This document shows, piece after piece, positions 37,641-40,155 of a stretch of DNA of 64,000 nt. Each line of letters opens with the position of its first letter. Within the stretch, counting starts at the first letter, position 1. Below the pieces are notes generated by a model that saw only the letters and a program-made list of their open reading frames with translations, had not been told where the DNA came from and made no database searches. The position numbers and the translations under genes were made by a program. Origin of the DNA: a virus; IMG/VR virus record IMGVR_UViG_3300029258_004337, positions 62,001-126,000 of that record. One strand, written 5' to 3'.

Positions 37641-38015
37641 GTGATCACCGAAGCCGACATCGACCAGCTGCTCTACGACCGCCACCTCACCCCCGAGGGC
37701 GCGCGCATCCTCCGCACCAAGCTCCAGGCGAAGGCGCCCCTCGATGCCGAGAAGCTGCAGGAGGTCATCGAGAAGCTGAGGCCCTCCATCCCGCTCGAGC
37801 GCATCACGGAGCCTCTGCCCGAGCCATTCCAGATCCCGCCCTTCGTGACGGGAGGCCGGGACTGCCTGTTCGAGCAGTTCCAGCGGGCCAACCCGCAGCA
37901 CACGGGCCCGCTGGGCCTGTCGTGCCCATGTCCTCGCTGCACGCCGCAGTGCCTGACTTCCTACGCGGGCACGTCCGAGTTCCAGGCACTCGCCGGCGTC
38001 CGCGCAGAGGCGTGA
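37641..38015 (+). CDS. hypothetical protein with Cys cluster, 124 residues
   Basis: GTG start chosen for the GGAGGT 3 bp before; an upstream in-frame GTG lacks a site. N-terminal helices (EADIDQLLYDRHLTPEGAR), Pro-rich middle, and a C-terminal cluster LSCPCPRCTPQC that could bind metal. The stop overlaps the next GTG start. Not recognised. Confidence 0.5.
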   Translation: MITEADIDQLLYDRHLTPEGARILRTKLQAKAPLDAEKLQEVIEKLRPSIPLERITEPLPEPFQIPPFVTGGRDCLFEQFQRANPQHTGPLGLSCPCPRCTPQCLTSYAGTSEFQALAGVRAEA

Positions 38016-38569
38016 ACCAGGTCAGCTGGTACCGGATCTACTCGCTGCTCGCCGTCCTGGCAGGGCAGCTGCTGCTCGCCGGCGGCGTGCTGTACCTGTC
38101 CCTCGAGGGCCTTCTGGCAGGCGTCCCCGACGCTACGCTCGCGGCCACGGCGGCAGCCGGGATGCTGGGGGGCGTCTACCACGCGATGTCGAGCTTCGGC
38201 GCAAAGCTGGGCTCGCGCACCTTCCAAGACAGCTGGGCGGCGTGGTACCTGCTCCACCCCGTCGAGTCCGCAGTCTTGGCGCTCGCGGTGGGCCTCATCC
38301 TCTTGGCGGGGATGGGCGCCGACGCCGACAACGCCTGGGGCTACCCGGCCGCAGGGGTTCTCGCGGGGCTGTTCACGAAGGAAGCGAGCCGCTGGCTCGG
38401 ACGCGTCGCCCGGTCTATCTTCGCTCCGGAGGCTCCCGATGAACCACAAGCGAGGTCGGCCGAAGAGTGCCCGTGCCGGGTGCTTGCTCTGCAAGCCACA
38501 CAAGCACCAGGCCGTGAAGAAGACGGCATCCGCCCAGACCCGTCAGGAGCAAGCGGCTCGCCTTCGTGA
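38012..38569 (+). CDS. multi-helix membrane protein
   Basis: A 185-residue protein with GTG start in the previous stop. Four hydrophobic segments are visible (YSLLAVLAGQLLLAGGVLYL, LAATAAAGMLGGVYHAM, AVLALAVGLILLAGMGA, WGYPAAGVLAGLF), then a hydrophilic tail. The last 43 codons overlap the small gene at 38439 in another frame and look less constrained. Function unknown. Confidence 0.5.
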   Translation: MNQVSWYRIYSLLAVLAGQLLLAGGVLYLSLEGLLAGVPDATLAATAAAGMLGGVYHAMSSFGAKLGSRTFQDSWAAWYLLHPVESAVLALAVGLILLAGMGADADNAWGYPAAGVLAGLFTKEASRWLGRVARSIFAPEAPDEPQARSAEECPCRVLALQATQAPGREEDGIRPDPSGASGSPS

Positions 38570-38606
38570 GCGCGAACAGCTTGCGGCGGCCTCCGGGCGA
38601 GAGTAG
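38439..38606 (+). CDS. small basic Cys protein, 55 residues
   Basis: ATG at 38439 after CCGGAGGCTCCCG. MNHKRGRPKSARAGCLLCKP carries an AT-hook-like RGRP, then CLLCKPHKHQ (Cys2 plus His, probable zinc), then a charged helix. Small GCLLCKPHK proteins of this kind are familiar from phages. It overlaps the 3' end of the membrane gene out of frame; the TAG stop is part of the next -10 box. Confidence 0.6.
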   Translation: MNHKRGRPKSARAGCLLCKPHKHQAVKKTASAQTRQEQAARLREREQLAAASGRE

Positions 38607-38609
38607 GGT
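38581..38609 (+). promoter_or_regulatory. promoter of the Pro/Met tRNA unit
   Basis: TTGCGG (38581-38586), exactly 17 bp, TAGGGT (38604-38609). The next ATG begins 8 bases after the -10 box, so the transcript would start at or near the ATG (leaderless). Confidence 0.55.
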
Positions 38610-38616
38610 GCGGGCC

Positions 38617-38688
38617 ATGATCGACCTCTCCCGACTCCAGCTGAACCGAATGCCGGTTCACACGCCCCGACCGACCAAGCGGGCGTAG
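38617..38688 (+). CDS. leaderless leader peptide, 23 residues, Met/Pro-containing
   Basis: Short open frame MIDLSRLQLNRMPVHTPRPT... placed at the predicted transcription start with no ribosome binding site. It has three Pro codons (CCG, CCC, CCG) and an internal Met next to the first Pro. Immediately downstream are tRNA-Pro(TGG) and a CAT-anticodon tRNA. TGAACCG/CGGTTCA (38642-38660) forms a hairpin around the Met-Pro codons. The TAG stop lies in the left arm of the hairpin at 38679-38705. Read as a regulatory leader peptide; this is inference, supported by the parallel arrangement at 38931. Confidence 0.45.
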   Translation: MIDLSRLQLNRMPVHTPRPTKRA

Positions 38689-38705
38689 CGTCGAGCTGCG
38701 CCCGC
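38679..38705 (+). promoter_or_regulatory. leader hairpin competing with tRNA-Pro 5' end
   Basis: Arms GCGGGCGTAGC (38679-38689) and GCTGCGCCCGC (38695-38705) pair (one T-G) around GTCGA. The right arm can alternatively pair with CGGGCGTAGC (38717-38726 region) at the start of tRNA-Pro, since GGGCGTAGCG occurs both in the leader and in the tRNA. The alternatives are mutually exclusive. Confidence 0.4.
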
Positions 38706-38714
38706 GGTCTTCGA

Positions 38715-38788
38715 CCGGGCGTAGCGCAGTCTGGTAGCGCACCTGCCTTGGGAGCAGGGGGTCGGTGGTTCGAGTCCACCCGTCCGGA
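38715..38788 (+). tRNA. tRNA-Pro (anticodon TGG)
   Basis: Complete cloverleaf: acceptor CCGGGCG/CGTCCGG (one G-T), D stem GCGC/GCGC, anticodon stem CCTGC/GCAGG with loop CTTGGGA, T stem GGTGG/CCACC with TTCGAGT loop, discriminator A. No CCA is encoded (TCT follows), so CCA must be added. 74 nt. Confidence 0.9.
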
Positions 38789-38801
38789 TCTCACACCCTG
38801 T

Positions 38802-38877
38802 CGCGGGGTAGCTCAGCTGGTAGAGCGGCGGACTCATAATCCGCAGGTCGGCGGTTCAAGTCCGCTCCCCGCAACCA
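38802..38877 (+). tRNA. tRNA-Met type (anticodon CAT) with C1-A72 mismatch
   Basis: Cloverleaf with anticodon loop CTCATAA on stem GCGGA/TCCGC, T arm GGCGG-TTCAAGT-CCGCT, and encoded CCA. The acceptor is CGCGGGG/CCCCGCA, leaving C1 opposite A72, the hallmark of bacterial initiator tRNA; both arms are the same as those I know for E. coli tRNA-fMet. However, the D stem (GCTC/GAGC) is elongator-like and the anticodon stem has only two of the three consecutive G-C pairs of initiators. Identity (initiator, elongator or Ile2) is therefore uncertain. Confidence 0.85.
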
Positions 38878-38895
38878 TCTCTCAACTACTTCCCC

Positions 38896-38924
38896 TTGAC
38901 GCCCGCGCGCCGCGTGAGTAGGGT
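38896..38924 (+). promoter_or_regulatory. promoter of the Tyr-Trp-Phe tRNA unit
   Basis: TTGACG (38896-38901), exactly 17 bp, TAGGGT (38919-38924). The ATG of the leader peptide starts 7 bases after the -10 box, giving a leaderless transcript. The best promoter match in the window. Confidence 0.7.
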
Positions 38925-38930
38925 CTCGGC

Positions 38931-39011
38931 ATGAACAGCACCCGCCAGCGCAACCTCCTCGCCGCCACCTATTGGTTTGGCTGCCCTCGGAGCACTGCGC
39001 CGGCATCCTGA
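38931..39011 (+). CDS. Tyr-Trp-Phe leader peptide, 26 residues
   Basis: Leaderless reading frame with MNSTRQRNLLAA, then Thr, the consecutive codons TAT TGG TTT (38970-38978, Tyr-Trp-Phe), then GCPRSTAPAS and TGA at 39009-39011. The three codons match, in order, the three tRNA genes downstream (Tyr 39076, Trp 39163, Phe 39244). TAT and TTT are the less common synonyms in this GC-rich genome. The frame overlaps the left arm of a long pairing that excludes the terminator at 39036-39067. Reading it as an attenuator leader peptide is inference, but codon identity, order, spacing and RNA pairing all agree. Confidence 0.75.
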   Translation: MNSTRQRNLLAATYWFGCPRSTAPAS

Positions 39012-39063
39012 CGAGAGACAGCACCTCTCCTTGATGAAGCCCTCGGCGCACCAGCTCCGAGGG
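38984..39063 (+). promoter_or_regulatory. antiterminator pairing of the tRNA attenuator
   Basis: CCCTCGGAG (38984-38992) pairs perfectly with CTCCGAGGG (39055-39063), and TGCGCC (38996-39001) with GGCGCA (39045-39050), across a CAC/CCAG internal loop: 15 bp in all. This uses both arms of the terminator, so only one structure can form. A ribosome held at the Tyr-Trp-Phe codons leaves most of the left arm free. A ribosome at the stop codon (39009-39011) would cover TGCGCC. Confidence 0.65.
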
Positions 39064-39067
39064 CTTC
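39036..39067 (+). terminator. attenuator terminator hairpin
   Basis: Uninterrupted 11-bp stem GAAGCCCTCGG (39036-39046) with CCGAGGGCTTC (39057-39067), loop of 10 bases, followed by the T-containing stretch GTCGTTCT and tRNA-Tyr 9 bases later. It begins 25 bases after the leader stop codon, so a terminating ribosome would not block it. Confidence 0.7.
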
Positions 39068-39075
39068 GTCGTTCT

Positions 39076-39156
39076 GGGAGGGACGCGTCGGGGTGACCAA
39101 GCTGGCTGTAAACCGGCTGCCGTTCGGCATGGTGGGTTCGACCCCCACTCCTCCCA
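39076..39156 (+). tRNA. tRNA-Tyr (anticodon GTA)
   Basis: Class II tRNA: acceptor GGGAGGG/TCCTCCC (last pair G-T), anticodon stem GCTGG/CCGGC with loop CTGTAAA, long variable arm TGCC-GTTC-GGCA, T arm GTGGG-TTCGACC-CCCAC, discriminator A. The D arm pairs poorly (GTC/GAC at best). No CCA encoded. First tRNA after the attenuator. Confidence 0.75.
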
Positions 39157-39162
39157 CTCACC

Positions 39163-39239
39163 GGGAGAGAGCTGGGGTATCAGCCGGGCGGATTCCAAAT
39201 CCGACTGCGAGTGGGGTTCGAGTCCCCCCTGTCCCGCCA
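39163..39239 (+). tRNA. tRNA-Trp (anticodon CCA)
   Basis: Acceptor GGGAGAG/CTGTCCC with one G-G mismatch, D arm GCTG/CAGC, anticodon loop TTCCAAA on stem GCGGA/TCCGA (top pair mismatched), T loop TTCGAGT with a GGGG/CCCC core, discriminator G and encoded CCA. The mismatches and short D loop make it a somewhat degenerate cloverleaf, but identity as Trp is clear from the anticodon. Confidence 0.7.
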
Positions 39240-39243
39240 CACC

Positions 39244-39316
39244 GGTTGGGTAGCTCAGTTGGTAGAGCACTGGCTTGAAACACCAGGTGTCGTCGGTTCG
39301 ACTCCGGCCCCGACCA
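39244..39316 (+). tRNA. tRNA-Phe (anticodon GAA)
   Basis: Acceptor GGTTGGG/CCCGACC (one T-G), D stem GCTC/GAGC, anticodon stem CTGGC/ACCAG with the closing pair C-A, loop TTGAAAC, T arm GTCGG-TTCGACT-CCGGC, discriminator A. No CCA encoded. Last tRNA of the cluster, five bases after tRNA-Trp. Confidence 0.85.
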
Positions 39317-39365
39317 CTCGCATCCTAGATCTGGAAGCAGTATGCTCCCGTCCACGGAGGTCCCC

Positions 39366-39926
39366 ATGCTGCACGACGCGTTCGTCACCGAGATGGAGAA
39401 GATCGCAGGCCCCTTCTCTCCCTACGAGCGCATGCGTCGCTCGGCGAAGAAGGACCGCACCCTGTCGCCGGGCGAGCGCGAGAACATGCAGCGCCAGTAC
39501 ATGGAGGCCCGGGGCAAGGACAAGAGCCGCGGAGCGCGCGTGGGAGGAGCCGCCGGCGGAGCCGCCGGTGCCTTGGCCACGCTGGGCAGCTTCGCGAACG
39601 ATGCAGACATCCACCACCACAGCGTCCGCATGGGCATCCCTTCGCGCCCACCCAGCAAGGGCAAAGCCGCTGCGATGGGCGCCGCCGCGGCTCTCGGCGT
39701 GGGAGGCATCACCGGCGCCATCTCCGAAGTCCGCCGCCGTCAGGCTGCGGCAGGCTCCAAGAACCCGGCCCGGGTCAAGGCCGAGCTCGCCGGCGCCAAC
39801 AGCCCTCGTCGCGTGAACCAGCGCAGCCGCCTCATCCGCAACCGGAACGCGGCGGTCCGGGGCGAGAAGCCCAGCTCGGCCATGTTCCGCAGGCGGGCCG
39901 CTGGTCGGGGCAGCGAGAAGCTGTAG
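39366..39926 (+). CDS. basic virion-like protein with N-terminal MEKIAG
   Basis: A 186-residue, very basic protein. FVTEMEKIAGPFSPYERM at the N-terminus carries the motif otherwise seen in structural genes. Two Gly/Ala segments (RVGGAAGGAAGALATLGSF, AAAMGAAAALGVGGITGAI) could be membrane-active. The Arg-rich end could bind DNA. The ATG at 39366 follows GGAGGTCCCC; an upstream ATG at 39342 overlaps a TATGCT box and lacks a site. Likely packaged in the virion; inference. Confidence 0.5.
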   Translation: MLHDAFVTEMEKIAGPFSPYERMRRSAKKDRTLSPGERENMQRQYMEARGKDKSRGARVGGAAGGAAGALATLGSFANDADIHHHSVRMGIPSRPPSKGKAAAMGAAAALGVGGITGAISEVRRRQAAAGSKNPARVKAELAGANSPRRVNQRSRLIRNRNAAVRGEKPSSAMFRRRAAGRGSEKL

Positions 39927-39927
39927 C

Positions 39928-40155
39928 GTGAAGCCTCCCGGAGCCACGTGCCCTCGTATCGATCGAGTGCAGAGGGCCCTGCGGCGGCTGGCCTGGAGGG
40001 TGAAGAACCGTCCGGGAGCACCGGACACGGCCGCCCTGCTGCAGAAGGCGCTGGCCGACCTCGAGCTGGTGCGCGAGGAGAACAGCCACATGCGCGCCGC
40101 CTACTACGCCATGAAGGAAGCGAAGAAGCGTGCCGAGGGTGCCCCGACGCCATGA
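39928..40155 (+). CDS. small basic helical protein, 75 residues
   Basis: GTG start two bases after the previous stop, with a weak ribosome binding site. Basic N-terminus (RVQRALRRLAWRVKNRPG) and an amphipathic helix (ALLQKALADLELVREENSHM). Not recognised. Confidence 0.45.
   Translation: MKPPGATCPRIDRVQRALRRLAWRVKNRPGAPDTAALLQKALADLELVREENSHMRAAYYAMKEAKKRAEGAPTP

Follow-up and report, generated by a model that had tools for sequence, protein, structure and literature searches.

When would a phage that carries tRNA genes of its own make use of them? The purpose of such genes is an old question, with codon compensation and the replacement of tRNAs cut by host defenses as the main answers (PMC10264068, PMC11555353), the latter having been proposed for phage tRNAs (PMC10264068). 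The locus described here puts the question in concrete form: what decides whether three adjacent phage genes, for tRNA-Tyr, tRNA-Trp, and tRNA-Phe, are transcribed? Our answer is that their transcription is probably governed by a ribosome-mediated attenuator in the preceding leader, a reading in which we have good confidence even though neither expression data nor covariation support it.

The window, meaning the whole 64,000-nt stretch that was analyzed, comprises bases 62001-126000 of a 174,678-bp virus record (68% GC). Judged by the major-head-like, tail-sheath-like, and gp5-like proteins that it is predicted to encode, the source is a tailed phage. ARAGORN at default settings finds four tRNA genes in the genome (Pro, Met, Tyr, Phe), and a fifth, an atypical tRNA-Trp(CCA), appears at relaxed settings only. 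The leader lies between tRNA-Met and tRNA-Tyr. Its features, in window coordinates, are as follows.

38896-38924, plus strand: sigma70-type promoter read from the sequence, TTGACG (38896-38901), 17-nt spacer, TAGGGT (38919-38924)
38931-39011, plus strand: leader peptide reading frame, MNSTRQRNLLAATYWFGCPRSTAPAS*, 26 codons, predicted leaderless
38944-38958, plus strand: segment 1, 5' arm of the protector hairpin, pairing with 38989-39004 (folding)
38970-38978, plus strand: regulatory codons TAT-TGG-TTT (Tyr-Trp-Phe), codons 14-16
38984-39004, plus strand: segment 2, forming the protector with segment 1 or, through 38984-39001, the antiterminator with 39045-39063
39013-39029, plus strand: small hairpin, GAGAG-loop-CTCTC, between leader frame and terminator (folding)
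39033-39070, plus strand: terminator-like hairpin of 14 bp, 39033-39046 with 39057-39070, -30.1 kcal/mol
39045-39063, plus strand: antiterminator right arm, that is, terminator loop and upper part of the 3' arm
39076-39157, plus strand: tRNA-Tyr (GTA), ARAGORN default
about 39163-39239, plus strand: tRNA-Trp (CCA), atypical, CCA end encoded, relaxed ARAGORN only
39244-39317, plus strand: tRNA-Phe (GAA), ARAGORN default, 62.8 bits with Rfam RF00005
39342-39926, plus strand: reading frame of 194 aa, 24 nt after tRNA-Phe

Promoter, leader frame, and tRNA genes

A preliminary description of this DNA, made from its letters alone, had noticed a TTGACG-17-TAGGGT promoter ahead of an ATG, a 26-codon frame with consecutive TAT TGG TTT codons, and the three tRNA genes following in codon order. 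All three observations are confirmed, the last with the proviso that tRNA-Trp is recognized at relaxed stringency only; it has mismatches in its acceptor and anticodon stems and falls below the Rfam tRNA gathering score. Overlooked at that time were the protector hairpin, the leaderless start, and how rare the control codons are; the observation is not only real but stronger than originally stated.

Six nucleotides separate TAGGGT from the ATG at 38931, which stands in a CATG context. From this spacing we infer that transcription starts at the A of the ATG, so that the mRNA would be leaderless. Nowhere else in the 174.7-kb genome does a TTGACN-TAGGGT-type site have a start codon 5-10 nt after it. 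The codon usage of the leader frame looks like that of a translated gene, except in the control codons and the stem region, and each of the 12 codons preceding Tyr has C or G in third position and is common in the phage. By comparison, TAT accounts for 12 of the 1223 Tyr codons in phage genes and TTT for 12 of the 1444 Phe codons (about 1% in each case), and attenuation has been predicted to be more sensitive when regulatory codons are rare (PMC1183508). Given the phage's own amino-acid use, Tyr-Trp-Phe would occur in a 26-codon frame with a probability of about 3e-4; this value is only a guide, since the motif was noticed after the fact and no correction was applied. The 194-aa frame beyond the tRNA genes, which has no Pfam or PHROG match, may be co-transcribed with them and hence come under the same switch.

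Competing RNA structures and ribosome position

The minimum free energy fold of the leader consists of the protector hairpin, the small hairpin, and the terminator-like hairpin, and its energy lies well below that of shuffled sequences (z = -5.5). The terminator had been described as an 11-bp hairpin at 39036-39067, which is the core of the 14-bp structure; the hairpin stands and its extent does not. Likewise, a 15-bp antiterminator using both terminator arms had been proposed. The pairing of 38984-39001 with 39045-39063 holds up, at 16 bp (9+7) and -31.9 kcal/mol, and "both arms" is barely true, for its right arm, besides the terminator loop, takes in 7 nt from the 3' side of the stem and just 2 nt from the 5' side. 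When the upstream part was dinucleotide-shuffled against the hairpin, 1 of 500 shuffles matched this pairing. Folding and a masking series indicate that terminator and antiterminator are mutually exclusive. Since the right arm consists mostly of terminator loop and 3' arm, the antiterminator could nucleate as soon as the loop emerges, before the 3' arm is available; such an order is inferred, and the modeled truncation series is consistent with it.

A weak point is the hairpin's tail, a poor U-tract (GUUCU), because of which a U-tract-based terminator scan does not call the 39033-39070 hairpin; termination there is inferred. The hairpin ends 5 nt before tRNA-Tyr, a proximity that would also suit an RNase processing site for the tRNA precursor, the leader fold then being coincidental. 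We regard this as very improbable indeed, for it leaves both the matched alternative pairing and the aromatic codons unexplained.

To model the switch, the RNA was masked as far as a ribosome's leading edge, and the probability of the terminator was followed along the growing transcript by partition-function folding; such masking at 37 C is crude. Without a ribosome, the terminator forms with a probability of 0.98-1.00 from an exposed end at 39067 onward, and with a ribosome at the stop codon it reaches 0.85-1.00 from 39063 onward, in keeping with the earlier claim that completed translation leads to the terminator. A stall at Tyr holds the probability at 0.00 up to 39069, where both the stop position and the ribosome-free RNA give 1.00, after which it rises to 0.25-0.38 for ends of 39071-39075. 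When the ribosome stalls at Trp or Phe, the antiterminator persists to about 39063, where the terminator probability is 0.00 for Trp, 0.13 for Phe, and 0.85 for a ribosome at the stop codon.

With RNA polymerase near 39075, some 8-14 nt at the 3' end of the RNA are hidden, so that exposed ends of about 39061-39067 are the relevant ones. Over these ends, ribosome footprints of +9 to +15 nt leave the Tyr stall ON throughout, the Trp stall ON at short-to-middle footprints, and the Phe stall ON at short ones only. The model bears out the earlier proposal that stalls at any of the three codons free the antiterminator, with the correction that the effect is strong for Tyr, intermediate for Trp, and weak for Phe, and the response in cells is predicted to follow the same ranking. 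An untranslated leader should, according to the model, terminate. Subtracting the Tyr-stall value from the stop value at 39071 gives a switch score of 0.748. Among 400 dinucleotide shuffles none switched, and the highest score was 0.006. A masking comparison had been suggested in the preliminary description, and the choice of structure does change with ribosome position as predicted there.

The shuffles bear on a plainer account, in which nothing is regulated: the promoter would be constitutive, the hairpin would insulate or aid tRNA processing, and the reading frame would be due to chance. The weak U-tract speaks for it. Against it, neither the switch (0 of 400 shuffles) nor the antiterminator pairing (1 of 500) arises readily by chance, the frame has the codon usage of a translated one outside its control codons and stem region, and a terminator 5 nt before a tRNA gene on the same promoter makes little sense unless it is regulated. 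We hold this account to be quite improbable.

A different alternative emerges from a scan of stalls over all codons, in which stalls between about codon 3-4 and codon 14-15 gave ON, and those at codon 17 or later gave OFF. The leader might be a general sensor of translation, with any slowing in its first half, whether by shortage, by an inhibitor, or by arrest on an ATYWFG nascent peptide, opening the tRNA genes, and the aromatic codons would then not be special. The breadth of the ON range (about codons 3-15, not Tyr-Trp-Phe alone) is as this idea would have it, and arrest-type leader frames are known (PMC12121999). The same scan, however, places Tyr-Trp-Phe (codons 14-16) on the ON/OFF boundary, the last place at which a stall acts; the three aromatic codons there follow the order of the tRNAs, and two are the phage's rarest synonymous codons. 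We therefore consider a general sensor unlikely.

Apart from the weak U-tract, the leader has the sequence features by which a leader-peptide attenuator is defined, and in the model it behaves as one. The attenuation first proposed for it is supported: every structural element is in the right register, the modeled choice goes as predicted, and shuffled sequences fail. On this attenuation reading, transcription would start at the leader AUG and a ribosome would load on the leaderless mRNA. With an ample supply of charged Tyr, Trp, and Phe tRNAs, the ribosome would reach the stop codon and cover segment 2, the terminator would form, and no tRNAs would be made. A ribosome stalled at UAU, UGG, or, less effectively, UUU would hold segment 1 and leave segment 2 free, which could then nucleate on the emerging terminator loop and zip into the 3' arm, allowing read-through into the tRNA genes. 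In the absence of a ribosome, segments 1 and 2 would pair with each other and the terminator would again form.

Known attenuators and the use of phage tRNAs

It is useful to compare this leader with established systems. Like the trp, his, pheA, and pheST attenuators, it has a leader peptide with cognate codons and a choice among protector, antiterminator, and terminator that depends on ribosome position. It differs from them in controlling tRNA genes rather than biosynthetic or synthetase genes, in sensing three amino acids matched to three tRNAs, in an antiterminator that pairs with the terminator loop and 3' arm rather than mainly with the 5' arm, and in its leaderless start and weak U-tract. 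Leaderless leader peptides and attenuators are present in Actinobacteria, and the phage leader resembles them in its leaderless start and in a TANNNT -10 box close to the ATG; the present one is in a phage, ahead of tRNA genes, and its host has not been established. A T-box riboswitch also senses tRNA charging and sets terminator against antiterminator, but it binds tRNA directly, without translation. We rejected a T-box here because Rfam gave no T-box or specifier loop match, with no T-box family reported within 38000-40000 at E values up to 1. The novelty lies in the target, phage tRNA genes, and in a three-amino-acid leader that matches three tRNAs in order. We found no report of leader-peptide attenuation of phage tRNA genes in the literature searched, which covered few subscription papers; such an attenuator would extend this form of control to them.

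Because the attenuator reads the same three amino acids that its tRNAs carry, the tRNAs would be made available once the corresponding charged tRNAs are exhausted. Codon compensation offers only a weak reason for carrying them, since their anticodons (GTA, CCA, GAA) read TAC, TGG, and TTC, which the phage uses almost exclusively (TAC and TTC make up about 99% of its Tyr and Phe codons). Together, attenuator and codon usage favor replacement over compensation. The likely trigger is that, in the course of infection, aromatic amino acids or functional aromatic tRNAs are lost. The signal may include tRNA destruction by host defenses as well as amino-acid starvation, with the link to this phage being inferred. 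A precedent exists in T5-type phages, whose tRNA-Tyr rescues them from retron-Eco7, a defense that destroys tRNA-Tyr (PMC11555353). In both cases a phage would supply tRNA-Tyr when that of the host is destroyed; for the T5 type a strong promoter is described and attenuation is not mentioned (PMC11555353), whereas here supply would depend on tRNA shortage. The attenuator also makes the purpose of phage tRNAs a question that reporters can address.

Leaders in related phages

A single reading frame of the genome encodes a 2067-aa RNA polymerase of the multisubunit type with beta and beta' fused (L005:5031-11234, genome 45031-51234, outside the window), distant kin of those in Salmonella phage Arash and Vibrio phage D69. 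No sigma factor was recognized among eight further large phage proteins scanned. More than 400 relatives of the polymerase were found in IMG/VR (best 49% identity), and the tRNAs of the records taken from there were then located.

In one of these records, G052 (RNA polymerase L060, 36% identical), tRNA-Trp, tRNA-Tyr, and further tRNAs follow a promoter, a leader of 47 codons, and a terminator whose U-tract is good. Single codons for Tyr (TAT), Phe (TTT), and Trp occur in the leader, and 12 consecutive bases at the end of its frame pair with the 5' side of the terminator (3 of 500 shuffles). In the model it switches by 0.81-0.86 between a ribosome at the stop codon and one stalled at Phe or at the Asp codon before Trp (1 of 200 shuffles). 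A stall at Trp itself gives 0.11 and is not significant (17 of 200 shuffles); only stalls further upstream switch. There is no protector hairpin, and the leader is ON without a ribosome. Its sequence is unrelated to that of the Tyr-Trp-Phe leader, of which it is an independent analogue rather than a homologue, and its switching counts in favor of attenuation in the present phage. That it responds in the model to stalls well 5' of the Trp codon is a further point for a general translation sensor. Returning to attenuation by aromatic codons, the biology leads naturally, as an inference, to an alarm circuit, in which the leader senses aromatic tRNA loss in infection, for example through host defense nucleases, and only then releases replacement tRNAs. 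That this is so, and that fused-RNA-polymerase phages have a group of leader-controlled tRNA operons with this phage and G052 as its first members, is a tentative proposal to which we give less than an even chance.

A third record, G039, has a promoter, a 51-codon leader, and a terminator ahead of 30 tRNAs; its hairpin and that of G014 were considered as further attenuators and rejected, as folding and shuffle tests gave no convincing switch. Five records (G008, G014, G015, G021, and G040) carry TTGAC-16/18-TANNNT-5/8-ATG just 5' of the tRNA region, in each the sole such site, and the loci L255 and L261 also have this promoter before tRNAs. The other 35 records searched contain eight TTGAC-TANNNT-ATG sites, none before a detected tRNA.

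L212:2417, minus strand: promoter-ATG site
L213:2414, plus strand: promoter-ATG site
L214, about 2564, minus strand: promoter-ATG site
L215:1867, minus strand: promoter-ATG site
L255, about 5313, minus strand: promoter-ATG site
L261, about 3074, plus strand: promoter-ATG site

The frames at the predicted starts have 2-6 codons (MA, MQLD, MTCRL, MNRRL, MQSCL, MSSQLP) and no cognate codons. An AUG-starting promoter thus appears to be a habit of such tRNA operons, and the Tyr-Trp-Phe attenuator an elaboration in one record. Because most other relatives have only tiny leaderless frames, the attenuator is not conserved across the family, and that their promoter comes with mini-frames only is a point in favor of an unregulated operon. 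No close relative is available, and distant ones with other tRNAs mostly lack the Tyr-Trp-Phe leader. The search for cognate-codon leaders in relatives, suggested in the preliminary description, therefore yielded a switching analogue in G052 and otherwise mostly frames of 2-6 codons without cognate codons.

Pattern searches found no homologue of the leader. In viral contigs, promoter plus Tyr-Trp-Phe plus T-loop had 8 matches, every one of them the same AT-rich coding sequence, which has no tRNA, and TAT-TGG-TTT before tRNA-Tyr gave 6, none a homologue: three were copies of one chance match inside a tRNA cluster, two lacked a tRNA, and L313 has a 40-50 aa frame without a terminator. A looser TAT-TGG-TTT/tRNA-Tyr pattern gave many matches, with no tRNA among the loci checked, and promoter plus Tyr-Trp-Phe plus tRNA-Tyr gave 2 hits in 84,980 bacterial and archaeal genomes, neither with a tRNA. 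These patterns miss variants, since spacer and codons were fixed. No relatives were found via the 194-aa protein or a topoisomerase-like protein.

Several further observations concern the genes around these operons. In G008, G015, and G040, a Pth2-like reading frame lies between the promoter-ATG site and the tRNAs; at L212 (about 2340-2027, minus strand) and L214 (about 2480-2168, minus strand) this peptidyl-tRNA hydrolase type 2-like frame, recognized by eye, stands between the leaderless mini-frame and the tRNAs. Both L213 and L261 have TGACNGTCAGACCGCTTCGGCGG after the mini-frame and a terminator-like hairpin before the tRNA. A small protein beginning MNHKRGRPKSARAGCLLCKPHK..., at 38439-38606 of the window, is also encoded just 5' of the tRNA leader in G014 (L213) and in L261, and has 59 loci in viral contigs. 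The phage's most aromatic-rich gene encodes a 294-aa predicted protein with 16% Tyr+Trp+Phe (genome 139191-140075, plus strand, outside the window).

Finally, covariance-model alignment gives most tRNAs in the relatives' small clusters non-standard anticodon loops. These clusters are the following.

L213:2553-2705: non-standard-loop tRNA cluster
L261:3198-3272: non-standard-loop tRNA cluster
L212:1787-1946: non-standard-loop tRNA cluster
L214:1932-2162: non-standard-loop tRNA cluster
L215:1699-1775: non-standard-loop tRNA cluster

Several of the tRNAs have 9-nt anticodon loops, for example CGTAAAGAA, ACTAAAGAA, and ACTGTAGAA; the loop is much longer in L212:1864-1946 and is replaced by a 4-nt GAAA loop in L214:2095-2162. 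These may be non-decoding or nuclease-resistant tRNA-like RNAs.
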